From contig JAANBB010000028.1 of NCBI GenBank assembly GCA_014621425.1, positions 62,001-126,000 of the forward strand: DNA of 64,000 nt, in the 5' to 3' direction. Below the pieces are notes generated by a model. That model saw only the letters and a program-made list of their open reading frames with translations. It was not told where the DNA came from and did no database searches. Positions 5,364-53,600 of this stretch are shown in pieces. A program made the translations under genes and the position numbers. Position 1 is the first letter of the stretch. Each line of letters starts with the position of its first letter. The DNA is from Cylindrodendrum hubeiense (taxonomy: Eukaryota; Ascomycota; Sordariomycetes; Hypocreales; Nectriaceae).

Positions 5364-7142
5364 TCACTTTGATAATAATTGCCTTTCCAGAAGTAAAAGC
5401 TTCAACTCAAGGTCTTTAATGTGTTGCACAGGGTCCTTATATGATACAGAGAGTTCTCCACTGTCCCGCGATGTAGCTGAGTTCTCTTTGCCATCAGTGT
5501 ATAGCATATCCCCCCAAAGGTCGCCTGTGGCGACCTTTTGAAGTGGGATAGCATAATACTGCCAGAGGTGCTCTCGGCGCAATGAACTAAAGCTCAGGGG
5601 CTTCCAGCACTCAGTTGAGGTGCAGATGAAGAAGTATTTCTCTGAACCATGTACTCGGGAATACGTGTTAGAGGCTTTGCTGCTCCCTCCCCTTGTTTGT
5701 GGCTTTGAATTCTTTGGGTCATCTAGTGGAATGGACTCCGGCGGGTTTCCGTAGGTGACCTCTATTCTTCGGCTAGGCCAGCCTACTATGCCGGGCCAAA
5801 GAAATGCCTGGTTTGGCGAGAACGAGCTTGGCAATGTTGAAATGCCGCATAAGGAGAGATAACAACTCAGGATCCAACGCCTGATTTCATCAGCTGTAGG
5901 TACGGATGATAGGCTGAGTGTCCCCAGAAATTCGCAGAGCAGGAGCTTAATAGAAATGGGTCTGGACTCGCCAATCAGGTGGGAAATCCATTTGAGGGAC
6001 CGGTTGGTTGATAATAGTCGGATGTTGAATGGTATTGAGTTTGAGAGTGCCAAAGAGATGTTGAGGGCGTTTATGATAATAAATGCCTTAAGTTGATACT
6101 TCGCTTTTTGATCAAGCTGAGTTGGAAACTTGGCCTGATTAAGGCATGTACGGAGGAGGGCCCAGATGCTTAAATCGGCGCCGATTGGGGGTGAGGATGC
6201 TTTCATATCCATTCTGAGTTTCTCGCTACCCTCTGGTAGCTTAGTTAATAGACCGCTGAGAAAGAATGTTTCATCCTCGATGTTTATTGAAGAGCCGCCA
6301 TGGAGAGCATCTTGGAACCGGCTGGGAGTGTCCAGGTTGTAATTGCGGAGGACGTCGAGAAGAACGTTAACATGCTCCATTCGAGATTTTTCGGCAACCC
6401 CTTGTCGAAAAGTACCTGATACGTGATTGTTCAGCCAAGTCGCCAACTCGTATTGATCATTGAATTTCCGCTTCTCTTGCTTTATCCTTTTCTCTAGTGT
6501 GGCCTGAAGCTGCTGTAACGCAACCTCGCTGGTATGGGCCAAGCCGTTGATAAGGTCAAGGATGCGCCTCTCCTCCTCTGTAACTTCACCCAGTCCTGGC
6601 TTGTATATCAAATCATGATGCACATCCGCCCAAGCGTGCATCACCACTGACGTAACTTGGATCTCGACCGTCTTACCGGTCAGGGGTTGCTTGGTCCTGC
6701 CGTCGGCCATAAGGCACACCCGGAAGTGCGTAGCGCGGTACCCAATGAAGCGGCTGTCTGGTTTTTCTACCACCTCTCCATTCCTGATACCCCAAATAAT
6801 TTGGGGCTTTACCTCCTTGAATGCAGTCTTCACAAAGTCTTCGACGCGTGCCAAGTCATCCGGAAAGTACAAGGCCACCCGAACACCAGCCAAATCCACC
6901 ATGGCATCAGTAATCTCTTCCTCACATGCGAAGTCCGTGCCACGGTCCTTTTGCCGACGTAGTATGGAGCCTGCGATAGTTGTGGGTGACTTCGCTCGGT
7001 GCGAAATAATGCATTTGAGATGACTCAGGCCTTCCTCACATCGGCTACGTACCTCGAGCGCCACCTGTTCATAAACCAAGATTCGCTCATTTGACCAAAT
7101 CTGGACAAATTTGTCGATCTCGGGGTACGATTCAGTGTTCAT
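5364..7142 (-). CDS. RelA/SpoT-domain (nucleotidyltransferase-like) protein
   Basis: This is an uninterrupted gene for a 592-residue protein. Residues 40-185 carry the RelA/SpoT synthetase fold in order. ISHRAKSPTTIAGSI stands at the position of the basic substrate-binding segment. DLAGVRVALYFPDD holds the metal-binding Asp (D83). GYRATHFRV holds the Tyr that stacks on the nucleotide acceptor (Y135). VEIQVTSVVMHAWADVHHDLIYK holds the catalytic Glu (E160). In bacteria this domain pyrophosphorylates GDP/GTP to make (p)ppGpp, and some small members pyrophosphorylate ATP or tRNA. I see no HD hydrolase motif and no TGS or ACT domain. The C-terminal 350 residues are helical-looking and unrecognised. 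One deviation is Thr-Ser where bacterial enzymes have Arg-Thr after EIQ. Fungal RelA/SpoT-region proteins are known but mostly uncharacterised, so the product should not be assumed to be ppGpp. Confidence 0.88.
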   Translation of the reverse strand: MNTESYPEIDKFVQIWSNERILVYEQVALEVRSRCEEGLSHLKCIISHRAKSPTTIAGSILRRQKDRGTDFACEEEITDAMVDLAGVRVALYFPDDLARVEDFVKTAFKEVKPQIIWGIRNGEVVEKPDSRFIGYRATHFRVCLMADGRTKQPLTGKTVEIQVTSVVMHAWADVHHDLIYKPGLGEVTEEERRILDLINGLAHTSEVALQQLQATLEKRIKQEKRKFNDQYELATWLNNHVSGTFRQGVAEKSRMEHVNVLLDVLRNYNLDTPSRFQDALHGGSSINIEDETFFLSGLLTKLPEGSEKLRMDMKASSPPIGADLSIWALLRTCLNQAKFPTQLDQKAKYQLKAFIIINALNISLALSNSIPFNIRLLSTNRSLKWISHLIGESRPISIKLLLCEFLGTLSLSSVPTADEIRRWILSCYLSLCGISTLPSSFSPNQAFLWPGIVGWPSRRIEVTYGNPPESIPLDDPKNSKPQTRGGSSKASNTYSRVHGSEKYFFICTSTECWKPLSFSSLRREHLWQYYAIPLQKVATGDLWGDMLYTDGKENSATSRDSGELSVSYKDPVQHIKDLELKLLLLERQLLSK

Positions 7143-7373
7143 GGCTTTTCCGGTTGCTCAAACCATAAGAGAGATTACTTTCACCTGTGTCAGACTTACC
7201 CCGGCCCGACCTGTATGAGGACTTAAGAAGAACTTGTCAGACGGAGGGGTCGGCCCGGCCGCGATGACTAAGGAAACATGGGTTAGGCACCGCAGCCGTT
7301 TTGTCATGTCGATTCGGTAATCCCGAACGAACAAGCTTTGGAGGATAAATCGGGATTGGCTGATCGCATGTAT

Positions 7374-25471: not shown

Positions 25472-28400
25472 ATGGGGCTTTTGAAGAAATTGTCAGCCAA
25501 GTATTCGGCCCCATCAGCTCAACAAGCAGGAGAAGGCAGCCATGAACAACAGGTATGCAATCGCTGACAAGGTTCTAAGCTCCCTCGTAGAAGATATGCT
25601 GAAATGTAAAGAGCAGCTACCTGATAGGACGAGAAACGCCAGTGAAAGCATCAGTAGTTCATCTACCGAAGCAGACGCACCAGAACCACATGTTGCCGAA
25701 CTAGAGCCTCATGGGCTATTCATTCTCCACCCGAAACCCGACACTGAGTGGCCTAGAGTGGAAGCAAGGGTGGAGTAAGTCTCATCGATGGATCTGTTAA
25801 GTCTCAAACTCACCGAAACAACAGTATTGTCGCAGTCCACGGTCTGAGCGGAAGTGCGAGAAAAACATGGACAGATTCAAAGACTGGCAAATTCTGGCTG
25901 GAGGACTTCCTGCCTGAGGGAATTCCAGGATCCAGAATAATGACATTTGGATACGATTCAAAACTTGCGTTCAGTCGTTCGAAAGCAGGTATCGACAATT
26001 TTGCCAGAGATCTGTTGAATCGTCTGAGGATGGTGAGGAACAGCGATCAGGTACGACCATACTGTCCCAACAATGGAGAGCATTGTAATGACGATAATAG
26101 ACATATGATAGACCTATCGTGTTTGTTGCTCATAGTCTTGGAGGAATTATCGTCAAGAAGGTATGAACCCAGCTTCGTTACATATTCCGGGCTAGTCTAA
26201 CATGACAGGCTCTGATCATTGCTCACGAAGCTAGCGATCATTATGGGAGCATTGAAAAGTCGACAGTTGGAATTGCCTTCATGGCTACTCCCCACAGGGG
26301 ATCGGATCTTGTTCCATGGGGAAACGTCTTTTCGGATGTGGTCAATTTCGTCACTCTAGGTCAAGGAGTTCGAAAGTCTCTCCTGAGTCAGCTCGATGAG
26401 AAGTCCACAGTTCTTGTGGATATCTCTCAGCAATTCGTGCACAGGGCCGCAGGTTTGAAGATTATGAGCTTCACTGAACAGCAGTCTGAGCATTCATGGA
26501 CCAGCCTTGTGATATCCCCCATGCCTGTTGAAAAACAACCGTAGAATGCTAATAGGTGTACCAGATTGTTCCGGAGTACTCAGCGGTTTTAGGCCTGGCA
26601 AACGAGATGGTGTTCCCGTTAAACGCGCATCACCGCAGTATATGCAAATATGGTTCCAAAAACCAGAGTTACATCTTGGTTGAAGCAGCAATCAGGGAGC
26701 TTGCGCAAGTCGCCGATGAGACAGGGTGTACGGTATTTTCTCAACTACTTGTTTGTTTCGTTGGACGACTAACACATCTCTCCTCTCTAAAGCAAATACA
26801 ACACTAGCAGAAATGGCTAAGAAATCGCATGACATTGTCCCCTCTGTCGAGGCAAATCCAATCTCATCACCACCACCACAGTCTAGGACCCCGGGCCTAG
26901 CCAAGACTGTTGTAAGTATTCCATATGTTTCCATGCAAAGTGGCTCCATCTAAATCCAGTACTACCAGCTTCCCTTTGTTGGTTCCGCCTCTCGGCCCCC
27001 CAAGACTAATAGCTTGGATTCGAAGGACATTGTTGGTCGATCTTCGATTCGGAGTTCGTCTACAATAATCGCCAAACCAAGACCCGCAACGAAGCCAATC
27101 AGGATCCGAATAAATGGCCTGAGTAACAAAATCGACAAGCGAGTTGAGGGGGAGAAAGCTTACTCTCACATGCTAACAGTCCCAGGAGACACTCCTGTAG
27201 AACGTCTAGGAAGCATTCTCCTCTCTGAGAAACCGAGTATGCAGGTTCAGGTTGACGCTAGGCGAGTGACCATTGCTGACGTTCCTCTTAGATCTAAAAC
27301 ACGGGACAAATTTTAAATTCCCAAACTATAGCACTGGAATTAATACGACATGGCAAGATGTGTTCACACATCCCGTTGAAGTGACATCTGACAAGCCATG
27401 TTACGATTTGGCAAAGGGGTTGAAGATACATAAGAAGCAGACTATTGCATCTTTCATGAGCAAAGTATTTCCTCATCCCGTCACAGCAAATTTAAGCAGG
27501 CAAGATGAGGACATCACGCCGGACCTTCAACCGTTTGAAGGTGTCTCATCCGAACTCATCGAAGTTGGTAGGGAAGGTGGTTCAGACCTCACGATATCCC
27601 TCATGCGAACAATCAGAGTTCCTGAAGACGACTCCGAATATGAACTGCCACCAGAACTTGGGCGCTTCCCTATATTCAACACAAAGCCTTTCTCTGAGAG
27701 ATTGCCGACATCCATGGTTGCTCAGGGTGGTCTTTTTATCCCGATGTACCGTACGTTGATGCTATTCCGTACCTCTCAGGCAATGCTAATTGGAGGCAAC
27801 ATCTAGAGATGGAAGCAATGTGGATCAATTTTGACCCAAAAGGTGCAAAGCGCTATGCCGTGCGACCTTTCCTTGGGGGAGTCAATGGAATTACTGGAGA
27901 CGGGGCCATGACAGACATGGCTACCCTTCTCCGCAGGCTGAACTCGGTCACTTCGCATCAGGACTACCTTGTTCTTCCAGACCAGCAGTGGCTCGATGGG
28001 ATAGCCACAAGTCCAGGGATTGTCAAGCAGTTTGTGGCCACTCCCATGACAGCTCCGCGCAAAGCCCCGAAAACCCCCCGAGCTATGTCTCACGTCAGCC
28101 AAGAGCAGAATGAAGATGTCGACCAAGCGGGGAGCGATGACCAACCGATGGGAGGCACAATAGAATGGCAAGTCACAGGCCAGGACGTTACTGGCGGCTT
28201 TCAATTGCAGCTAATTCCAGAGTTTGATACCAACAACCTATCGGCAACTTCACAAGTCGATGTGGTTGAGGCTGGTTCCGATGCCCCCTCAATGTTCAAT
28301 TCTTTGGAGTCCAGGTCTGCTAAGTTCTACGACGTTTTGAAAACCCCCAAAGAGTTAGGATTGACAACCAAAGATATCATTCATGTCAAGGACATACTCT

Positions 28401-30342
28401 CGAATCTACCTGACCGCCCAAAGGTTATGCAAGACTTGCTCACAGAATCCTCGAATAAGTTGAGGGAATGGGAAGTTGTAGAAATTGCTCTTGATGTCAA
28501 TCAGGCTCTGATGTGGAATTTCACTATTCGCCTTGCGGATAAGAACAGAACAGGCATTGAAATCAACGTGAGTTGTGTTGCCGACAGAAGGAGTCTTCCA
28601 TTACACGATAAAGTGGCTAACGGGTGGACAGTGTGATGAGGACGATGAATGGGACAGGCTACTAGATGTTGTTCGCAACAGTCTCGGTCTTCCCAACGGA
28701 ATACTTTGCATGGAGGGCATTGCAACAAACTCGGCTATGATACCTGTGGACAGTTGGGATGCCATCAAATGGATCAAAAATACCCTACCCCCCAAGGATG
28801 ATCAATGGAAACTTGTCCTGGTAAGTCTAAATGTGCACCAAAGTCTCATACCCTGCACCGGTACACCGCACGAACTTTTACATCGACTTACTCGTTCAGT
28901 ATCCACCGGTACTCATTGAGAATCATCGCTTCTGCTGCGTGGAAGTTGCTGGTGCAGGAACAGTCACGAACCGAATTTGCGTGGCATTGAGCGAAATCGC
29001 GACAATAGCCATTCTCAAAACCATTTTGAAGAATATTTCTCCTGGGATCTCTAACTGCTCGATTGTAGATGAGACTGGAATTTTACCCGATGACACCGTC
29101 ATCTTCAGCGGTGTCCGCGATATATTCTCGCGGCCGAACTTCATCGCTTGGTGTGGTCCTGTTCCAAGTGGTGTAGACGGTGGAGGAGTGTTTCCAATCG
29201 TTATCAAAACGCTTACGGGCAAAGTGATAACTGCAGAGGTTCAAATATTAACCACGGTCCTCAATCTGAAGCACCAAGTCCAAGCGAAAGAAGGCATTCC
29301 TCCAAAGCAACAACGACTCATATTCATGGGTCGTCAACTGGATGACGGTAATTTTGGTTCATGCTTTAATTGCTAATATACTGACTTCAGTAGGCAAAAT
29401 ACTAGCCCAATACAATATCCAGCCGGTAGTTATTATCAATCTGTTACTATGTGATAAATTGCTGAATATCGCATATAGGAATCAACGCTTCATTTGGTCC
29501 TGCGTTTGTCTGGTGGTGGATATTGCATCACTATTCTCTACCAGGAAAAGGAAAAGAAGTTGTGGTTTGGAAGCGATGACAGAATGTCTGCCGCGAAACA
29601 ACAGCTTTTCAAGGAGCTGCACATCCCGATTTGGCAGCAAATTTTAACTTGGGATGGGCAGATTGTCGATGACGGTGAGTTATCAGATTGCCCAGCTCTA
29701 GAGAAGACCATATTGTCCTGATTGATATCTATAGATGAACACCCGTTATCTTATCGAAACAAGGTATTGACGCTTACACTCGCTCCTCGGGCCACGGCAC
29801 TAGGAATTGGTGCTGGTGGAACTATTATCCAGCACATCGAAAGAGACACCTACGATCCGGCAATTTGGGATGTGGGAAACTCGAAGATTCTCAATATTCA
29901 GATTATCGATTCAACAACTTTCCGATCGGTGACGGGGCTTGATCCACCGAAGTCGCCAATCTCGGCAAAGACGTACCAGGAGATGGGGCTTCCGTTCTTC
30001 CAACTCTGGCGCGATGAAGCTAAGGAAGACGGTGTTGCTGGCAGCTGGAAATCCATCAAGGGCGTCGCCGAGGTAGAAAGCCGAAATGCGAAGCGTGGTG
30101 GAAAGCAAGTGGCCGCCGGGCCTAGCCAAGACAGTCAATTTGGACTTCTCCGGAGTGGAGCTTGGGGGAGGGCTGGAGTTGATGGGCCTGCTGCGATGGG
30201 TGCTAAGGAAGGATTTAAGGAGGAGAGTTTGTCTTTTCCTGTCGTTCTTCTCGATGTTGATGCTACGGTTCCGATTTTCAAGAGCATCTTGGATGACAAC
30301 TGGGATGAGGGGGAATGGAGCTCTGATGAGGATAGTGATTAA
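25472..30342 (+). CDS. SesB/SERAC1-like alpha/beta hydrolase fused to tandem ubiquitin-like domains
   Basis: The gene has about 14 exons joined by hand, and every join keeps the frame. The hydrolase part (25770-26720) has VDIVAVHGLSGSARKTWTD, FGYDSKLAF, the nucleophile elbow VAHSLGGIIVKK, FMATPHRGSD, and EYSAVLGLANEMVFPLNAHH, as in SesB domains of fungal NLR proteins. A linker follows. Next comes a conserved fungal module (27640-28230) with GGLFIPMYQMEAMWINF, FLGGVNGITG, DYLVLPDQQWLDGI and GIVKQFVATPM. A further stretch (28330-29170) is not recognised. A ubiquitin-like domain (29190-29520) reads VIKTLTGKVITAEVQ, AKEGIPPKQQRLIFMGRQL, YNIQPGESTLHLVLRL and ends SGG. A second beta-grasp unit (29515-29790) reads ILTWDGQIVDD and a DE-rich tail closes the protein. 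There is no NACHT domain. The start is uncertain: 25472 with an intron at 25553-25616, or 25542 without one. Two adjacent genes cannot be excluded without RNA. Confidence 0.78.
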
Positions 30343-41366: not shown

Positions 41367-43296
41367 ATGGAGGTAGCCGGGCTTGTCATGGGTGGCATCC
41401 CAATTCTGGTCTATGCACTCGACAATTATAAGCGGTGTTTGGAGCCCGGGAGAGACTACTGGAGATATTCATCCACCCTGAGTTCTATTCGCAGTCACAT
41501 GTTCGTCCAACAGGAGCAGCTTGACGTGACCCTTAGAAATATCGGACTCGTGAAGCCGTCAAGGATAGAACTCGAGCAACACTTACAGGAACTCTATTCA
41601 CAGTCAAAATGCTACGAGTTTCTAGACATATTAGAGAAAATGGAAAAGACAGTTGGTAAAATGATGGAAAAGCTGGACATTGACTCAAAGGGAAAGGTGC
41701 GTAATACAATCTAATTCCCCCCTAAGACTCTCCCAACATATGCGTCATCAAAACACAATACTCCTCAAGGGCGCAGCTAACTTTGACTCGATTTAGCCGC
41801 GATGGGTTATAGATACCGAGGAGCGTGTTACTTGGGAATGGCGTCGAATAAGACGCAGCCTTGGCCGAAAAGAGAGAGAGCAGTTGATCGCTGAGCTACA
41901 ATATTGGAATACGGCGTTGAAGAACATATTCGAGAGAGTCGAGATCCCATCAGCTGAATCAGACCCGACCCTGGGAGATATTCAGGCAAGATTTAACGCT
42001 ACACATTGCGACAAGGCCAGACAAAACTTCAGGCAGATGCATGGAATTCTCGCTCAAAGATGGGGTTGCGACTGCCAAGAGCACGGAGGGAATATCCGAT
42101 TGGATTGGCATACTACGAAAACCGCACCTACTGATAAACTTACTTTGGTGATGCCATTTGACAGCTCTCACCACTGGCATCAAGTTTCTGTGAATTTCCA
42201 AGCGGCTCAGAGGGATAATGATGCACAATCTATTTCCTCAAGCTTGGATTCTACGGCTGCGGCAACTACAAGCACATCACTAGCCCCTCGCCAACCTTCT
42301 CCATCCCGAGCAACGAAATTAAAGGCTCTTTTCGGGTCTTCTATAAATAAGAAAGCGAAGGAATCGCCGCGGTTCCTTGCCGTGTCTCCAGGTAAAGCAC
42401 AATTTTTGTTATCTTGCGTATCGTGCGGCAACGCACATTCTCATACTCGTTCAGATATCCCTCCGGCCCCAGTCTTAACTCCCAGCAACATCCCAAATGA
42501 ACTCCGTGAAATATCATGCCTATGTGGCTACATAAAATCAGCGAAGGAAAAGGATTCTGGGTATCTTCTATGCCCCAGCGACCATGCAAGGCATCTCATG
42601 GTTAATTTCCCGCCGACTCCTCGGCAAATGAAATCTATCTCTTTGCAATCACTTCTAGGGTCAAGGAGACGTCGAACCTCATCTCATCTCCAACTTTCCA
42701 GGAAGCACCGATTTTCTGTGGCAGCTGCAGCGGTATGGACTCTGCTCTATCTCTGCGACTCGCCCTGGATGGACAACAGTTGGAGTGGCAAAGACCAGAT
42801 TTATCTTTTTGCAGAAGACTCCGACGCGCTTAGAGGACTCGCTGACAATACCACCTTTCGCTACATCTTCAGATCTGCTGAAGATAATCCTCCACCAAAA
42901 GAGGATTCAAGTCTCCAAGGCTCCCCTGCGGAAGCGGAACGCTTCCAAAGCAAACAAATCATCAATAAAGACCTTTTTGCCCTCGGTATTCTCCTCATTG
43001 AACTCTGCCTCAACGTAACATTTGAGCAGATTCGCCAGGAAAGTCAGGGGGACTGCCTCTCACCATCACTTGGCATACCATCATCCGCAGTCGACGACTT
43101 TGAGATTGCTACTCAGCAGATAGATAGGATATATCTTGACGCCGGTGATTCATATGGATATGCAGTGCAGCGGTGTCTACGCTGTGAATTTCCGGGTCGT
43201 GACGTAACTAAGAACTTCGATTTTCGGCAGTTTAGACAACATTTCTTCACAGGGGTGGTCGCACCGGTACAGGCTACTTATTTAATGCAGCCATAA
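41367..43296 (+). CDS. DUF7580-type fungal protein
   Basis: Two exons join at DSKGK-PRWVIDTEE across an intron of about 100 nt (donor at 41698). The N-terminus (MEVAGLVMGGIPILVYALDNYKRCLE) is the typical start of a large fungal family with a predicted helical, HeLo/prion-domain-like N-terminal bundle. The middle contains a cysteine-bearing domain (WGCDCQEHGGNIRLDWHT). The C-terminal DUF7580 region reads HRFSVAAAAVWTLLYLCDSPWM, KDQIYLF and DLFALGILLIELCLNVTFEQI, ending YGYAVQRCLRCEFPGRDV. This C-terminal part looks like a degenerate kinase-like lobe. Relatives occur near or within fungal incompatibility and immunity loci, but no biochemical role is known to me. The reading frame is intact. Confidence 0.83.
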
Positions 43297-43549: not shown

Positions 43550-45114
43550 TTACATTTCCTCGAGTTCCTTCTCAACCGCCCCCCAAAGGTCGCTCCTCAA
43601 GTTTCCTTGGATCCAATATCCACCGCTTCGGTCTTTTCCCAGAATTGGCCAGCTTCCTCTTGGAGAAAGGCCATTGGATTCTCCGGTCAAGTTGACAAAA
43701 CTTGGTTTTGCCCTCACAGTCGCACCCTCTTCTTGCTTCTCCATTTCTACCACCGCCGCCCCGAAATCAAGCTCGAAGAAACCCGCCTTTGTCCAGTTGG
43801 AGAAAACCACTAATCTCGTACCGCCATTTGCAAATAAGGCCGGACGACCGGTCTGATCCATTGCCTTGCGCGTGAGGCCAGCTAGGGCATCGATTTGCGA
43901 AGGGGTGCCCTGCTCAACGATAGACTTGCGGACGAGGGAGGCGGTATAGCTGAGGGGTTTGGTGAGGATGTCGCACGCGGGCGCAAAGGCGGAGACAACG
44001 AAGACGGCGTTGGAGAGGACGACACCGGCAGCCGCCGATAAGGTGGAGGAGAGGGCTGGGCGTAGGTTGAAAGCGTTGACTATTGCAATTTCGCTTGTGG
44101 AGGTTGCGCTGAGGTTTCTGACGGCGAGACGGGTAAGAAAGGCGCATAGAACGTCGCCGCTGGAGATAAACGGGGGAGTGCTAGTGGTGGATTGAACACT
44201 AGAGTCCCTGCTGGTGGGGAGATCGACGTCGAGGTCTTTCATTGCAGCCTTTTTCATGGCCCGGATGTGGCGCGCTGGAATGTAGATGGTACGCTGCGAG
44301 TCGCGGAAACAAACCAGGTCAAATATGTAGCGGAGTGAGAAGAGGACCATGTTAAAGCCAGTGAGTTGTTTGTTGGCCAGCACATGGGGCTCCTTCGGTT
44401 TGAGCCCTAGCGAAGCCAGAGGGTCGTTGGCAAAGTTGCAGATAGGGGGCACTTCATCTTCCCGACCGTTAAGAACTGAGACCCAGGCATTGAGTACAGT
44501 AGACATTGCCACGGCGTCCATGAAGGTGTGGAGCCAGGATAAAGACACCAGCGTCGCGTCTTCAAATGAGACAATGTGGAGGGATAACTGTGGTTCATCT
44601 GAGTTGAGAAAATCTTCCAGTTTCCTTGGCCCGTCGCTCCGACGCGCGAGGTTGACAAGATCTCCGAGATCGCTGTGGACCGACGTCTGGCTGGTTGGCC
44701 TGGGAATCCGGGAGGCTAAAGGGTGATTTTGAATGTTCATGAACTGTTCGTCGTTCGAATATGTGAACCCTGGTCTTTTCGCATCGAATGATGCGGGAAC
44801 ATGGTATTCGAGCTTATTTTGGTCCTAGAAAGTTGGCGGACTCGTCAGCTTGTATCCCAAGTTTACAATCCAGCTTGGGCAATTACTGTTTTCCGTAAGC
44901 GAGCTCCAAGTTTTCTCCAGTCGCCGATTTCCATCAGCCTCTCCAGTGCGTCGCGAAGCTCCTCGGGGTCGAGGACCTCGTCAAAGCGAAGTGTTATGTA
45001 CAGAAGAACAGATCGATTAATCGTGTTGTCGTCAAAGTAATGCATGGGAATGACGGTGTCTGTGAGGACCTTAGGCGGCCGCACGGGCTTTGCACCTGGG
45101 TAGAAGCTCGCCAT
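43550..45114 (-). CDS. BAHD/trichothecene-acetyltransferase-like acyltransferase
   Basis: Two exons join at ARLRKT-DQNKLEYHV across an intron ending near 44826. The product is about 500 residues with the two-lobed acyltransferase layout. The catalytic HxxxD motif is present as WLHTFMDAVAMS. A DFG-type structural motif occurs as ELDFGAAVVEME, and GRPALFANGGTRLVVFSNW fits the C-terminal lobe. Such enzymes transfer acyl groups from CoA to alcohols or amines of secondary metabolites and are cytosolic. It lies 2.5 kb from the NRPS-PKS gene on the same strand and is a plausible tailoring enzyme of that pathway. A 32-bp minisatellite begins 28 bases upstream of the ATG. Other in-frame starts exist inside the minisatellite frame but are less likely. 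Confidence 0.85.
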
Positions 45115-47659
45115 CCTGGAGGTGTCCGGTGTTGCATGCGTGACGGGTATCTGAAGCCAAGTGCTGGATGTGTGATGGGTATCTGATGCCAAGTGTTGAA
45201 GGTGCGACGGGTATCTGAAGCCAAGTGTTGGATGTGTGATGACGATCTGGAGCCAAGATCGTCACAAAAGTAGAACGGATCGACGTTTATGACCATCTAG
45301 GGGTGACCGTGCTTCTAATAAGCTAATTTAGTGGCGGTGTTTATTTCCCCCAGCAAATTGTGGAGATTACGCGTTCCATTAATTTCCCGCCTTCATCCAG
45401 TAGTGCAAACGGTTATTTCAATAGTTCTATCTAGTGCTGAATAAAATCCACTAGTGGTCCCCAATAGCTTGATTTATATAAACTATCTTTTCTCTGCATC
45501 GCTTAAGCTGAACTGGGCTGCGAGGCGCTATCAATAGCCTATCACGACATATACCACTTTATCATTGGTAGCTGTGTAAGGGCGTGGGCCTCAGGGGCTG
45601 AATAGCGCCTCGGCTTTTCTCAGGTGGCGTAGTTCCGAGTTGAATCAAAAGGAAAAGTAATGGCTTAGTTGCAGACTGAGTCATCTAGCTGCACCATAGG
45701 AGTTAGGCTCACAGCCCGGTCCACATACAAGGTTTTCAGCCGTGACAATAAGAACGCCTACAAGTTTGAGGCACCGGCAGTTATCCCTAACCCCGATGTG
45801 GGTTTCTGCCCACACTCATTGTGCGATCATAAGGCTGAAGAAGACTCAGATCAATCTGTCAAGTTAGTCTGCATGGCTTCGACTTTCCCCGAATCCGCTT
45901 CATTGTCCTTTAAAAGCGATCTTTGCGCAGTTCTCTTCAGGCACATCGATTAGCGTCGATGGCTTTTGTCTCAGCGCGAGGGCGCCGAGAAGACGGAGCA
46001 AAACCTTTTGCATTCGCGAGTAATTCCAATTGCCACTCTCCCGGTTGCTTCTGAGGCCGCCGTGGCTGGTGGTGCAGCCATGACGTCAGCGAGGATGTCA
46101 CTGTCGAGTCAGATCAGAGTCTAGACCCAGCCTAATGGCCTAGCAAGGTGCCCTTCCTAGGGGACCCTGGATTTCAAGGTACACTGAGGACCAGGATCTT
46201 GAATGGAGAAGTGATGTGAGTGATGAAAGTGCTCAATACTAGATAGTAAGTGGCATCGTAGCCTTTGGTGATCGCCGTCGTAGGCAAAGTTTCTTCTGAT
46301 GGGTATCAGACTCTCCCATCCGTTTATGGGCTAGCGCTGGGCTGAACCATCTGGCTGGTATCCTTCTGAATAAGGTGGACAGTACGGATAGAGCTTGACT
46401 AGGGAATGGCGCACCTCGTGGTCTTCTTAGGCTCGCGCAGCGGTTATTGAACAGACTATTTTGGGGCACTAAACAGGGGCAACCAGATGGGCGTCATTGC
46501 AAATGAGGCGATCTGATGAGAATGACACACTAAAATAAGCATCAAATCATAGTTGTTAAGAAAGCCCCTTTCAAGCCCGCTACTGGCGTCAACGGTGTCG
46601 TGTACCTTGATCCAAGATCAAATCTGGTGGGAGAATTGCGCTTCTGAATGGTTCAGTTGTCTGGACATGCACGCTCTTGATTAAGATGGCCGAGACGGGT
46701 CGCGCACCAACAAGAATGCCCAATCATTTACTGACCTGGAGCTGGCGGGAATTAACAACTCCATTGTCAACCTGGGGACTTTTGCGCTCGCTGAAACATC
46801 AAATTGTTCTCGCACGCATCTCAAGGCTGGCCACCGGGCCACGTTTCGGGGGTGCGGGCAATCCAACCAAGTTCTGATCTGCTTTTTGCCTTGGACGGGG
46901 ACGTTCGAAAAGGAGTTTCCAGTACATCACGCTGGCGGTGTTTTCGCTTCCGGTGGCTCAATCGTTACAACACGCTGTGACTTCGTGTCATGAGGTTGAG
47001 ACAAGACGAGATACCCGGTCGGGCTGATCGCGCAAAATGCCACTACTTCTTGATAGCGGATCGTCCATATGACGAGTTATGTCGTGCGAAAACTTCGACA
47101 AGTCAATCGTGTAAAAGGCTGGACGGGCCAGTCGCGCAAAATGCAATCGGTTGACCCGCGGTGGCACGACTTAAAAGAATGTCGACGTCACCGATTTTCC
47201 CACTCTGCTTGTCATTCCCTCTAACTGATTAAACATCAATGCATCTATTTTAAAACCCAACCCGATTTTCAAGCACTTTAGCGGCCGAAAATATATGCAA
47301 ACAGTTTCTTGAACATGTCGGTAGCTTCCATCATTCGTATTTCTAGGCTGTCTGGCTAATATCTTCATATAATTTGAAGTAAATGGATCTTCGAGTCAGC
47401 GATTTAGAGCATTGGAAGCATACCGAGTTGAGTCTACGGGTATCATTGGTAATTAATCACATGAAGAGGACAGAACTGTTGGGGAAAGCCGTGACGGGAA
47501 AGGAAACAAGCTCACACATCAACCATGTTATTTTAATACGTCGGTCATGGCCGAGATAGTAGGCGGCAGTAGACTGAATCGAAAGGATAGGATTGAATCC
47601 CTACCACCTCCCATGACAAGTAATTAATTGCCATTGAGAGTAAAAATACATTCTATAAT
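45115..47659. other. Intergenic between the acyltransferase and the megasynthase
   Basis: Apart from the minisatellite, this 2.5-kb region shows no supported gene; short ORFs lack family features. The block CGCGCAAAATGC occurs twice (near 47029 and 47131), each preceded by a GG(T/A)CGGGC-type sequence about 12 bases earlier. This is a small degenerate direct repeat. Confidence 0.55.
45142..45257. repeat. 32-bp minisatellite just upstream of the acyltransferase gene
   Basis: Three full units (45142-45173, 45174-45205, 45206-45237) and a partial one (45238-45257) share GAxGGGTATCTGAxGCCAAGTG and differ by a few transitions. The array lies in the 5' leader or proximal promoter of the acyltransferase, starting 28 bases from its ATG. 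Confidence 0.88.
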
Positions 47660-50600
47660 CTACCTCTGCATAATTCCTTCGATTACATCATTGATAATCT
47701 TTCCGGTTTTCACGGCTTGAGATACTCCCCATAGCTCAAAGTGCCCACATTCCAGCCTGTGTACCTCGGCAGTAGGAATCACTTCTTGCCATTGCGGCTT
47801 GAACGTCAGGTTACTGCCGCTTTGACTGCCTACGGCACTGATGTAAACAACGTTGCTGAGGCGAGATACCACCTCTTTCTCAACATCAGACAAAGAAGCG
47901 ATCTCGGGGCTATCAAGTGCAATCAAGCCAATATTCTCGGCCGAAACACAGGCGGAATCGGCAAAGAGAGCAGCGAGGCGCAAAGCTGAGAGACCACCAA
48001 GCGACATTCCAACGATCACCAGGTTTCCAGATCCGATTTGAAGTCGCAAAGTATCAAGATATGCCTTGATATGGGTATTTGTGGCGTCTTTACCCTGATG
48101 CTCAAGTGCTAGAATCGTGACGTCCTTGCGGAGGTTTTCCAGCAATGGAATGGCTGACACACAGCTACCTCCCGAACCAGGAATCAACACTACCGTCACA
48201 TCACTACCCTGCTGAACTATGGTGGACGAGATATCGGTGGACGCTGAAACGGAAAGCTGCTCGTCATAAAGTTCGGCAAGGGCAGAAGGTGTGCAGGCCG
48301 AAAGTAAAAGTCCCTTGACCCTGAAAAACTGGTCAGTGAAGTTCCATAAACAATTGCAAGAGAGGCGTACCCAACAATAGGGCCTGAAAGTCGCCTCGAA
48401 GCTATTCCCATGAATTCGATAAACAACTTGCTGCCCAAACCATGTATTTTCAGATCGGTGTCCGGCATTGCCTCAATTCCGAGGACTTCGGAAGCGCATT
48501 TCGCAAACACGAGGGTAGCCAGTGACGATACTCTCTGCTCATTGTTCGCAATCGACTTCAGTCTAGGCGCCTTCAGACTCTTTCGGTTGAATGTGGACTC
48601 CGAGACTAGAATTGTTGTTTTCTTGAGCAAATGATGGACTGGAAACCCTAAGACGACATGCGAGTTAACGCCACCCCACCCTGAAGCCGATACAGCGAGG
48701 ATATCTTCAGGCTCAAGCTGAGTCTGTTTCGTTGCGAGTGTGATAGGTAGGTCGGGATTAATCATCTGGTTTGGCTGTTCAAGACCCTTGGTCGCTGGTA
48801 TAACACCCGCCTGCATAGACTTGCAGAGCTTGATGAGCGATACAAGTCCAGATGAGTGCTAGTTTTGTGTCAGAGTAACACGTTCTGTTCTCCTTTCTAG
48901 TTATACTTACCTGCGTGTTTCCGATATTTCCCTTCGTTGAACCAACGGTGAAATGGTGGCCATTGCCTCCCAGTTCTTTGACAGCAAGACTTAAACCTTC
49001 TAGTTCGAGCGCATCTCCGATAGGAGTTCCACTTCCGTGGATTCTGACACCAATTCGTTAGAAATTGTAATGTGTCATGATATAATCTCTACTCACTCGG
49101 CATATTTGAGCCTTTCGGGAGTTAGCTGAGCCACGTTCCAGGCTGATTTGATGACATCAGCCTGTCCTCGGGGCGACGGGACCTGATACCCGGCCTTATC
49201 TAGCGCTCCGTCCGATCCAACGCCGGTTCCGAGGATTTTGGCATACGTAGTGGTGCCATCGGTAATTGCTGCCGAATATTGCTTGAGAACAACCGCAGTC
49301 ACGGCATCAGCAGGCACGGTTCCATCAGCACGGGAATCGAAGGGATTACATTCTCCTCGAGGGGAAAATATCTGTCCCTGTTGTGTAATATAACCGCCCC
49401 TGTTTGACTGTTAGTTATCAGGCAATAGTAAGTTGGACTAGAAGAGAAAATATACTCATATAGTTGGACAGAAACACCGCCGACAATAGCCATGTCGCAC
49501 CGACCGAGCCGAATGGCATCAAAGGCCTGCGACAAAGCGACAGTGCTACTGGCGCAGTTGGTCTGGATCGTGATATTTGGACCTCTAATGTTGAGGTGGT
49601 ATGCAGTACGAGCAGAGATAGACGGCGCTACGAAACCTCGGTTTTCCCGAAGGAATGTGTCTGTAGCCACTGATTCGGTATGCAAATGGTAAGCATGATT
49701 GGCAGACCCAACGAATATGCCAATACGCCCACCAGGCAAGGTCTTCATGTCAGTTCCTGCATCGACGAGGGCTTCGTACGCCACCTCCATGAACAGTCGT
49801 TGCTGAGGATCCATTTCCGTAGCCTCTTCCTCGGTGAGGTTCCAAAATTCATGATCAAAGTCCTCTATATTGTCAAGAACGCCGGCCTGATGAACCCAAA
49901 CATTTCCTGGAAGCAGATTGTGTTCACTTCCAGTGTTGGAAGGCCGAATTCCAGACTTGCCATCCATCAAAATCTGGTAGAACTCGTTGACGTTTTTGGC
50001 CCCTGGGAAGCGCCCGGAAATTCCAACAACGGCAACCTCATGCGAGTGAGATGTGTCAGATACAGAGGTTGTCGTACTCTGAGTAGAGAGGCGAGAATCG
50101 TCAAACATGGAGTCCATAGATGCCCTAGATGCAGGAGTTTTCACTGCACGTCGGACAATTTGAGATGGCTTCTTTCCCTCGCCAAACAGTAAAGCTTGAC
50201 TCTTGATTGTGGATTTGTGGAACAAGTCAACAAGCCGTACTGCCTTCAATGGGAATGAAGCTTTAAGCTTATCGTGTAATTTGGGAACGAGGAGACTGTG
50301 GCCACCAATGTCGAAGAAATTGACGTCAACTGGAGGACGAGAGGACATTCTCAGCACGTCCTGCCAAATTTTGGTCACAACGTGCTCATCCTCAACAGGA
50401 TCCAGAGTGCCATTAACATCAATATCGATATCACTCTCGCTCTCCAGGAACTCGCTTCCTTCCGAGGCATGAGACTGAATGAGCTTCTCGCGCATGGATC
50501 GAACAGTCTTGTGGTCAATCTTTCCGTTGACATTTTTGGGTAGACTGTCCATGACGTAGATTCTCGACGGGATCTTGTGGCTAGGCAGCATACCTTTTAG

Positions 50601-53600
50601 AGTATCCAGCAAAGCCCTCGAAGAGACTGCGCTGGGGGCCACGAAGGCAAGTAACTCAAGGCCATTCTCGGAAATCTGAACCGAGGTCTCTTGAACGCCG
50701 ACAATAGCGTCTAGAATGGCGCTCTCAACCTCTTCTGGCGCAATGCGAAATCCGCGAACTTTGAGCTCTCTGTCGATTCTACCCATCACAAGGAGAGAGC
50801 CATCGTCCAGTAACATTCCGCGATCGCCGGTTCGATACATGAGTACGCCTGTGCCGTGAACGCCAAAACTCTTTGCTGTGATCTCTGGCTTTTCACAATA
50901 CCCTCTGGCAATCTGAGGCCCGGACACACAAATCTCGCCCTCAAAGCCTGACCCGAGAACTCGTCCAAAACCCTCTGCGCAGATATGTATATCCACTTGA
51001 GGGTTGGGTCGTCCAGCCGAGATCACCTCAGGAAGATCTTCTGATTTTCCAATGTTATTGAAGCATACTGCAATCGATGCCTCCGTCGGCCCGTAAGCAT
51101 TGATTAAGTTGACCCGGAGGTGCCATTTGGCGAAGACCTCATGTGAGGGTGCTTCACCCCCGATGGAAATTTGTCGAAGGCTGGGTAGCTCAGCATTTAG
51201 AGGCAGGGTCTCTAGTGCTGTTGGCGTAATTTGCATGAACGTGATGCTATTCTGCTCGATGACTTCGGCAAGATATTCACCAACAAGCTGTTTGGGGTGC
51301 TGAGCAAAGCAGAGGCAAGCACCCGTGCAGAGCGCGCTGCTCCACTCCAAGATGGAGGCATCGAAAGAAAAGGATGCCAGTTGCAGGACACGAGTGCCGT
51401 AGCCGACCTCAAAGGCATTTGTAGAAGCTTTCACGAAAGATGCCAAGCTAGCATGCCCGATCATCACACCCTTTGGTTCTCCTGTCGAACCGGATGTATA
51501 AATGATATACGCGAGATCATCATCGGCTGTAGAGAACTTGACATCGTCTTGTGAGATTGTTGTCTTGACATTGGACTCAGAAGAAATCTTTTCCTCGACC
51601 AATCTTTCGTTAATGACTAGTCTCGGCTTGCAGTTGTCTATCACTGCCGTTTGCTGGCGCTCAGTAAAGTCAGGATCAAGGTAGACAAATGAGGCACCAC
51701 ATTTGAGAATCGCGACGATCCATTCAATGATTTCAAAGCCGCGTTGAATATGAACCAGAACTTTGTCTCCACGACAGACGCCTTTCATTCTCAGGACTAG
51801 TAGAGTATATATCAATAAGTGGTTATTGCACGGAAGCCATACACACTTACAATTTGCTTTCTCCTCACTAGAATTATACAACTCGCCGTATGTCATGGAC
51901 TTCCCTAGCTCACTAGACAGGAGTGCCAAAGCTTCTGGGCGAGCCTCTGCATGTGAATCAATCCAATGGTGAACGTGCTTTAAAGGATTTGACTGCACTT
52001 CGGCTGATGCATTCGGTAGGTTGGGATGCTTGGGGAGCCACTCCAACATTTCTATGAGCTTCGTTCCTTGAACCTTGCTGAGAGCACATAGAGCATCGAA
52101 CCGGGTTTTCATGTTCGCTATAGCCGTGCCCGAAAATACCTGTGGGTTATAGATTACCTGAGCCAAGGTCAGACGGTTTCAATGAAATAGATGAAATGGG
52201 CGTCGAAACTTACTCCAAGTTTGACATCATTCTCGTACTCAAGAAAGCAAAAGAACAGATCCCATGATCCCTCGACAGGGAAAAGCCTGCAACCGGACTT
52301 TGCTAGCTTGGGGGAATATGTAACGGCCACCTTTGGCGGCTCATAGTCAATATTCATGTTCCGACAGGATCTCACGACCTCCACAGCCGGGAACATCTCG
52401 GCCCTTTTAACGGCACTAATATTCTTGCTCACTGCTGACACTAGGGCCTTGAAAGAGCCATCCCCTTTATGGATTGCGCACCAAAGGGGGATCTTGACGG
52501 GTAATGCGTTCGCAAACTGACCGACGCAAGATGCCATGTCTTTATTTCGGCTGCCAAATCCGACTGAAAGGACCTCATCTCTGCCAAATTGTGGTTTGGT
52601 TTTGTCAATGACAAGAAGACCTACCAAGGCTGTGGCTACACGAAACCAAGATGTCTTGAACATCTGACTCCAATTTTCGAGGTCCTGGTGTATTGTCAGT
52701 TGATTGATCATGTAACTGTTTTACGTGAATGTACTTACAGACTTCTCGAATGTACACCAAGAATCGATATGGCGGTAACTATCGTTCAGAGCAGGAGGGT
52801 TTGGAACGCTTTTAGGCCAAGTTGAGCGGTTTTTGTTTCGAGCTTGATCAAGAAGTACACTCTGATTATCTGCGTAAGTTTGAGACCTAGCCCACGCTCT
52901 CTATCTTCATAATCAGTATGTGCCATAACTAGGATTATGGTTAAACTGCCTTACCTCTGTCATATGCATGGTATGGAAGGGCACCACATGAGGGAGTGTT
53001 GTTTCAGGTTTATCCAGTAACTCAACAAACTCGCGAGAAATGTTGGTCATGGACTGGCCATCAACCACAATATGGTGGCATGTGATGTAGACTCTGAAAA
53101 CTTCTGAGTCTTTGAGGATGACCCAACGAGCCGGAAGCTCGTGTTGCAGCGCAAATGGCTTCCGCAGGATGTGGGTCATTGTTCGTTCATCAATGGCGGA
53201 GTTCTCACGGTAGACGATACAAATCTCTGGATCCACATCGTCGGCCGCATATTCCTCCATATTGGGCTTGCCATCAATGATGGTAAACATGGATCTCAGT
53301 GTTGCGTGTCTTGCAGTTAACTTTCTCATGACTATGTCGGTCATTCAGCATTCAAACGACTTTAGCGAGGTTGGCAGCACTAACCTCGTAGTAATTCATC
53401 AATACTTGGCTTGGGTCCCGATTGATCATGGAGGAGATCCCACTCAAGGGTGAGATTGTACTTGGTACTAAACGGGTCCGTCTGAAATTCCACCCACATT
53501 CCCTCCTGGCTTTTTGTCACAGGATAGATGCATCGCGGTATGGCTGCTTGTTTTTGTCTTGTTGATGTTGGGTCATTATCCTGATTGAGCGGCCCTGAAA

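Follow-up and report, generated by a model that had tools for sequence, protein, structure and literature searches.

The window considered here is a stretch of 64,000 nucleotides from the ascomycete Cylindrodendrum hubeiense (contig JAANBB010000028.1, positions 62,001 to 126,000; coordinates below are those of the window). On its plus strand, at 25472-30342, lies what is almost certainly a single real fusion gene, whose predicted protein runs from a SesB-like hydrolase through a module marked by an MWxxF motif to a ubiquitin domain (Ub) ending in LRLSGG, a second ubiquitin-like domain (Ubl2) and a C-terminal module. As judged by profile comparison, the MWxxF and C-terminal modules are the two halves (coreN and coreC) of one ancient core family of bacteria, viral contigs and eukaryotes, such that the ubiquitin domain is embedded between the halves of a single core. 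The tail of this ubiquitin is unusually well kept in relatives, which suggests, short of proof, that the protein-tagging machinery of the cell can act on the enzyme.

The gene was modelled by hand as one open spliced frame from an ATG at 25472 to a TAA at 30342, with 15 exons encoding 1358 amino acids; its 14 introns are 46-79 nucleotides each and are bounded by GT and AG in 14 of 14 cases. Residue numbers are those of this version, the Pfam scan, the first alignment and the first searches having been made with an earlier version of 1361 amino acids that is three residues longer after residue 275. The change came from dropping the acceptor 26555/26556 for 26564/26565, which removes three residues without counterpart in the aligned relatives. 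An apparent meeting of two frames near 27700 was ruled out as a frameshift, since removal of the intron 27751-27806 brings the sequence back into frame precisely where the conserved PMYQMEAMW lies. Nine of the 14 exon junctions fall in stretches that align with relatives, and all nine are clean joins; variable stretches hold the remaining five, to which this kind of judgement does not apply. Over residues 401-1361, a protein of Dactylonectria macrodidyma (P0002; relatives are given P numbers throughout) aligns across 98% of the length at 56% identity, and seven further matches cover 97-99% at 38-46% identity. Given such near-full-length alignments, the gene is, at the level of sequence comparison, not a chance chain of open reading frames. 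The deposited model, G7Z17_g2655 (P0001; 1023 amino acids), is also one gene, with a start at 25542 and the same stop, and the single spliced fusion proposed in a first-pass annotation of the window stands. Missing from that model are the AHSLGG exon with the catalytic serine, further parts of the hydrolase, and two exons that encode most of the ubiquitin domain; because it skips the catalytic-serine exon and the two ubiquitin exons, no Pfam domain is listed for it. In other words, the hand model makes visible a family that was hidden. The short basic N-terminus encoded by exon 1 has counterparts in several relatives, which begin in a like basic or aromatic manner (MWKKLKRLS, MLKPFKKWS, MSWAKKLGR), and is a possible membrane-contact segment.

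The ubiquitin domain is close to ubiquitin itself, as the first reading of the sequence had held. Pfam PF00240 matches it at residues 1034-1104 of the 1361-residue version with 92.1 bits against a cut-off of 25.4, and 48 of 74 aligned positions are identical to ubiquitin. The C-terminal Gly-Gly is present, whereas the full LRLRGG is not, position 74 being Ser instead of Arg. In all 27 proteins that have the three parts (P0001, being the same gene, was left out), the order is coreN, Ub, coreC. Of these 27, 23 show RLRGG exactly and 25 show Gly-Gly, those with Gly-Gly and without the full motif being the window gene (RLSGG) and P0010 (TLRGG); P0037 ends in RLRGC, and P0012 has no tail. Among 12 hydrolase fusions the tail is the best-kept hexamer of the domain, first of 71 six-residue frames, with an identity to ubiquitin of 0.92 against 0.61 for residues 1-70, and in 13 non-fusion proteins the corresponding values are 0.99 and 0.68. 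This ranking left out P0012 (no tail), P0014-P0017 (truncated), and P0057 and P0061 (Ub split); the tail still ranks first when P0012 is added to the fusions (0.85 against 0.59) and when P0057 and P0061 are added to the others (0.99 against 0.62). In the fusions Lys48 is kept at 0.58 and Lys63 at 0.17, poor conservation which argues against selection for the building of chains; I44 is kept at 0.92, H68 and V70 at 0.83 and L8 at 0.75. The overall picture is that the Gly-Gly tail is probably used in the family, being either cut or conjugated, and that its use in the window copy is plausible and somewhat doubtful.

As to the two-part core, hidden Markov models (HMMs) built from 58 bacterial sequences match the protein at residues 559-696 and 1178-1260, in that order. 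What had at first been taken for a conserved fungal module is not a fungal invention: it makes up one half of a core that bacteria and phages also have, and the other half of this core follows Ubl2. A scan of bacterial and archaeal genomes gave 578 pattern stretches, 503 of them encoding a core relative, and the best 80 of the 503 were kept, all 80 with bacterial record titles. The bacterial protein is of about 340 amino acids. An intact core reading frame was found in 61 of the 80 kept loci, and in 36 of these 61 a reading frame of one cluster lies within 4 kb; the three members of that cluster which were scanned are helix-turn-helix proteins, and on an annotated plasmid a helix-turn-helix regulator is directly upstream of the core gene. 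The core is also present on 27 IMG/VR viral contigs, 14 of them longer than 190 kb, and in 6 plasmid and 2 phage records. Several viral cores have a longer loop separating the halves, and in Virus Rctr197k (L113) the core lies a few genes away from a head morphogenesis gene.

The core of Aeoliella (L033, 8001-9047) is predicted to fold as one unit, with a predicted local distance difference test score (pLDDT) of 85.2 and a predicted template modelling score of 0.85 in the best of five models (the others at 68.8-82.8), and only residues 198-218, which separate the halves, fall below 50 for three residues or more in a row, so that disorder is predicted at that point alone. A comparison of the core fold with solved structures gave nothing usable, which is no proof of a new fold. 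The stand-alone L033 core has no Pfam and no NCBIfam match, and ten larger relatives have no NCBIfam or PADLOC match within the core part. Outside the core, P0040 and P0063 match a PADLOC 'nacht' model, two RT-Protease models and PDC-M35A in the trypsin-like part, and P0011 matches DUF626_VIII in the hydrolase. Fusions of the core to trypsin-like, GGDEF, Sel1, VWA-like (by eye and a weak match) or TPR parts were seen in P0040, P0048, P0052, P0053, P0063 and P0021.

Ubl2 corresponds to the second beta-grasp unit of the first-pass annotation, which has held up: profile-profile comparison places it among ubiquitin-like folds at 97.4%, a figure that is partly a match to its own kind, since five such second domains from relatives were part of the ubiquitin profile. 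In P0011, another relative, the predicted Ub-Ubl2 pair aligns with linear di-ubiquitin, and within this pair the blocks of ten residues have a pLDDT of 66-82, save for 49 at the junction 941-950. The last part of the middle region, between coreN and Ub, may be a degenerate third ubiquitin-like fold (34.7% profile-profile probability), and P0006, P0007 and P0010 have an OTU1_UBXL match above the cut-off in that region. Further ubiquitin-like folds were looked for and are unsupported, at 0.2-0.4% before the core and 0.4-3.4% in the first parts of the middle region. The Dichotomopilus fusion P0010 also has a HEAT_2 match, below the cut-off, near its longer C-terminus.

At the front of the chain, Pfam DUF676 matches residues 81-207 (1361-residue version) with 30.6 bits against a cut-off of 20.3, and the AHSLGG motif is intact, in agreement with the SesB/SERAC1-type hydrolase originally proposed. 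Among P0002-P0013 the same model is above its cut-off in 7 of 12, just below it in P0003 and P0007, and without a match in P0002, P0006 and P0009. Sixteen rows, the window gene included, extend to the column of Ser167, the predicted nucleophile; 14 of them have Ser, and the two without it (P0002, P0009) look mis-spliced in their deposited models. The likely partners of Ser167, in what we take, by comparison with SERAC1, to be the triad, are Glu265, conserved in 16 of 17 rows, and His298, conserved in 17 of 17, again with the window gene included. The predicted enzyme is quite probably active. Elsewhere in the same genome 40 other loci resemble the hydrolase. In 16 of them a NACHT match on the same strand follows at a distance of up to 3 kb, the expectation being about 0.003 per locus; because these 16 relatives precede NACHT, the hydrolase is SesB-like by kinship. 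The other 24 loci have no NACHT match within that distance, NB-ARC not having been searched in the genome. The NACHT search scored 90 of 128 candidates, and among the scored matches none lies on the contig of the gene. As to the features of fungal NOD-like receptors (NLRs), the window protein has no Pfam nucleotide-binding oligomerisation domain (NOD) or repeat at E ≤ 1, which bears out one half of the initial description; the ubiquitin folds that were thought to stand in their place sit, instead, between the halves of the core. SesB-like domains have been linked, more indirectly, to regulated cell death (PMC9815663).

The search with residues 401-1361 returned at least 27 proteins, the gene itself included, and at least 16 of the 26 others (P0002-P0017) have hydrolase and coreN in the domain table. 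Both protein searches scored just the candidates sharing most words, so that the counts of relatives are lower bounds, and the hydrolase, Ub and Hint HMMs of the domain table, having been built from members of the same family, are not independent tests. Relatives are deposited under titles such as 'Ubiquitin-like domain-containing protein' or 'Protein SERAC1', and some records are incomplete, at the front (P0002, P0003, P0006) or at the back (P0013-P0017). Among the named sources the fusions span three classes of Ascomycota, namely Sordariomycetes (Bombardia), Dothideomycetes (Zopfia) and Leotiomycetes (Hyaloscypha); the fusions of Dactylonectria, Fusarium, Dichotomopilus, Mariannaea, Ilyonectria and Schizothecium belong to the first as well. 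When 10 proteins are compared in pairs, the distances measured on hydrolase, coreN, Ub/Ubl2 and coreC are correlated with one another (0.67-0.88; permutation p 0.0005-0.001), and the parts have therefore been inherited as a unit.

A different arrangement marks 8 of the 15 hydrolase-free relatives (P0019, P0028, P0030-P0032, P0034, P0035 and P0043): LRLRGG is followed at once by the initial Cys of a Hint domain, and coreC comes after that domain. A profile made from any seven of these Hint domains detects the eighth, with E from 2e-22 to 5e-60 and no match beyond the eight among the set; Pfam Hint-type models are above the cut-off in four of them (P0030-P0032, P0043), and the domain ends in HN in seven and in QN in one. 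Hint domains form a thioester on the residue preceding their Cys, which is the same chemistry as that of activated ubiquitin, and the Hint-bearing proteins are possible self-processing ubiquitin devices. Their sources are mostly metagenomes, and they are probably from protists; P0029, with core and Ub and no Hint, is from a Cercozoa transcriptome. A RING-like segment stands at the N-terminus of three of the Hint relatives (P0030-P0032) and of P0033, which is truncated. By pattern, such a segment is also present in fungal core proteins without a Gly-Gly Ub (P0026, P0065, P0071, P0083, P0084, P0086 and P0088); Pfam RING is above the cut-off in P0026, P0031 and P0033 alone, below it in P0030, P0032, P0065, P0071, P0083, P0084 and P0086, and P0088 has no Pfam match. 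After its RING-like segment P0084 has, by eye, a C-terminal tail similar to that of the window protein. A paralogue in the same genome (L085, contig C445, 14000-20000, minus strand) has both core halves and, by eye, a RING-like segment, with no Gly-Gly ubiquitin seen. The association of the core with ubiquitin chemistry thus takes more than one form, although the RING part of this statement rests mostly on weak matches.

The reading that we tentatively prefer is that the protein is cut after Gly-Gly, giving a hydrolase-core-Ub piece for the ubiquitin machinery. The chain would fold and then receive a single cut directly after residue 1104, the cutters in fungi being ordinary deubiquitinases, which usually cleave behind a ubiquitin fold bearing such a tail. 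The cut would yield hydrolase-coreN-Ub with a free ubiquitin C-terminus. Since joint folding is predicted for the two halves of the core, this piece may remain bound to Ubl2-coreC. Hydrolase-coreN-Ub would then enter activating, conjugating and ligating (E1/E2/E3) chemistry, such that the hydrolase would serve as a ubiquitin-like tag that is attached to, or carried to, targets or membranes while a self/non-self or stress pathway is active; alternatively, the hydrolase would be recruited by ubiquitin-binding partners. Covalent delivery, taken by itself, is possible and rather unlikely. A wider proposal, which we consider improbable in its entirety, is that the core scaffold shared by bacteria and phages displays the embedded Ub together with a means to cut behind Gly-Gly, by self-processing Hint in the probable protists, where the RING-like segment of three could make ubiquitin transfer independent of E1, and by deubiquitinases in fungi; the window family would then be a 'warhead ubiquitin', with the hydrolase up front and covalently attached to targets, and the platform would take the place of the NLR NOD.

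Several points weigh against cutting and conjugation. The strongest, for the window gene, is the Ser in place of Arg74, where the 11 other tail-reaching fusions have 10 Arg and 1 Pro. Other fusions also depart from the motif (P0010 with LTLRGG, P0013 with RMPGG, P0012 with the tail lost), as does P0037 with its final RLRGC, and P0057 and P0061 show just the end of Ub between the halves. Conservation of the tail can stem from binding instead of cutting. Hint profiles find no Hint in any hydrolase fusion, and in the window protein Ub is followed by Gly, with no Hint in the Pfam scan. The full-length P0011 model, used for Ub and Ubl2 alone, is poor overall (pLDDT 46.6). The first-pass annotation had offered a processed precursor, a cis-acting modifier or an effector regulated by deubiquitinases; the conservation of the tail and the Hint relatives would favour processing after Gly-Gly, and the altered window tail speaks against it.

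The alternative that survives best, itself unlikely, dispenses with cutting: Ub and Ubl2 would be fixed docking folds acting in cis, which either dock the hydrolase onto a partner that binds ubiquitin (p97/Cdc48, proteasome, receptor) or keep the enzyme in an inactive state, with the tail as part of that interface. The lack of a Hint match in the fusions is consistent with this, as are the absence of any peptidase from the Pfam scans of the window protein and of P0002-P0013, the retention beside Ub of an Ubl2 without Gly-Gly, the alignment of the P0011 pair with linear di-ubiquitin, the loss of Arg74 in the window gene, and P0012, which has lost its tail yet kept hydrolase and core. However, docking in cis gives no reason for the Gly-Gly end being the best-kept part, nor for Hint in the relatives beginning exactly at Gly-Gly.

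A good deal less probable is that Ub serves as bait in a sensor or decoy, where an induced or foreign deubiquitinase cuts after Gly-Gly and frees the hydrolase to cause cell death, Ub thereby taking the role of the NLR NOD and repeats. The 16 of 40 same-genome hydrolase relatives that stand before NACHT, the link of SesB-like domains with regulated cell death given above, and a PigL_N N-terminus above the cut-off in the fungal core proteins P0026, P0065, P0069 and P0071 would fit such a scheme, but housekeeping deubiquitinases are generally expected to cut an RLRGG tail without infection. Slightly less probable again is that the family uses its tail and the window copy has decayed, the Ser at position 74 stopping processing and leaving a function of hydrolase and core alone; that substitution, set beside the Arg of most other fusions, is the point in its favour, whereas all 1358 codons form an unbroken frame, and the other tail residues Leu71, Arg72, Leu73, Gly75 and Gly76 are kept. 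That the locus consists of two or more adjacent genes, or is an annotation artefact, is very improbable: deposited models do differ or are truncated (P0001-P0003, P0006, P0013-P0017), but the same order, which the first-pass annotation suggested seeking in other fungi, recurs in one chain in P0004, P0005 and P0007-P0011, the deposited model is likewise one gene, and the distances of the parts are correlated.

Features of the fusion gene, with positions in the window
Feature	Position	Strand	Basis
Whole gene, exons 1-5	25472-25552, 25617-25774, 25825-26050, 26101-26160, 26209-26508	+	hand model
Whole gene, exons 6-10	26565-26727, 26793-26911, 26960-27236, 27292-27750, 27807-28567	+	hand model
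Whole gene, exons 11-15	28632-28820, 28900-29347, 29394-29425, 29479-29674, 29735-30342	+	hand model
Exon 1, short basic N-terminus MGLLKKLSAK	25472..25552	+	sequence comparison
SesB/DUF676-type alpha/beta hydrolase, residues 58-323	25707..26708	+	Pfam DUF676; own family HMM
Predicted nucleophile Ser167 in AHSLGG	26134..26136	+	column conservation
Core N-terminal half (MWxxF module), residues about 562-754	27591..28225	+	hhalign to bacterial core 99.95%; bacterial HMM
Middle region, residues 765-1028	28256..29190	+	profile-profile; relatives' Pfam
Ubiquitin domain, residues 1029-1104, introns 29348-29393 and 29426-29478 inside	29191..29517	+	PF00240
Ub tail LRLSGG, residues 1099-1104; Gly-Gly codons 29512-29517	29500..29517	+	alignment
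Ubl2, residues about 1105-1170, no diglycine tail	29518..29775	+	profile-profile 97.4% (partly own kind)
Core C-terminal half (GIGAGGTIIQHI...), residues 1178-1260	29797..30045	+	hhalign to bacterial core 99.06%; bacterial HMM
C-terminal tail FPVVLLDVDATVPIFKSI and acidic end	30229..30339	+	by eye

Elsewhere in the window, 5364-7157 (minus) encodes a protein with a RelA_SpoT domain, a domain type also serving as an NLR N-terminus; 41797-43296 (plus) is an open reading frame with a DUF7580 domain, and about 43550-52178 (minus) is probably part of a secondary-metabolite cluster, with transferase, AMP-binding and ketoacyl synthase domains.

No description of the hydrolase-core-Ub architecture was found in open-licence papers, such that the candidate for an undescribed effector design is uncontradicted by that literature. 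Effector fusions and ubiquitin fusions are both of known kinds, and no new mechanism is demonstrated. If the tail is used, the family would connect three fields, namely the self/non-self effectors of fungi, conjugation by ubiquitin, and a core protein without a name that bacteria and large phages share; it would also provide a modifier that brings its own enzyme. Among known systems, the SesB-like NLRs of filamentous fungi share the N-terminal DUF676/SERAC1-type hydrolase, as the same-genome relatives before NACHT illustrate, but the window protein has core and Ub instead of NOD and repeats. Ubiquitin-fusion precursors, which comprise polyubiquitin, the Ub-ribosomal proteins and Fubi-S30, likewise hold Ub within a longer chain that continues after Gly-Gly; here, in contrast, an enzyme and a core half stand ahead of Ub, Ub lies between two halves of one fold, and cutting is only inferred. 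The BUBL proteins of ciliates combine ubiquitin-like with bacterial-intein-like domains, and eight core relatives resemble them in having an LRLRGG Ub followed at once by a Cys-starting Hint, whereas the window protein has Gly at that place and no Hint, and core halves flank its Ub. ISG15 and other tandem ubiquitin-like modifiers have two folds, the last one carrying Gly-Gly; the tandem is shared, but in the window protein it is the first fold that carries it. The bacterial and phage core protein, finally, is homologous in both halves and differs in having neither Ub nor hydrolase.

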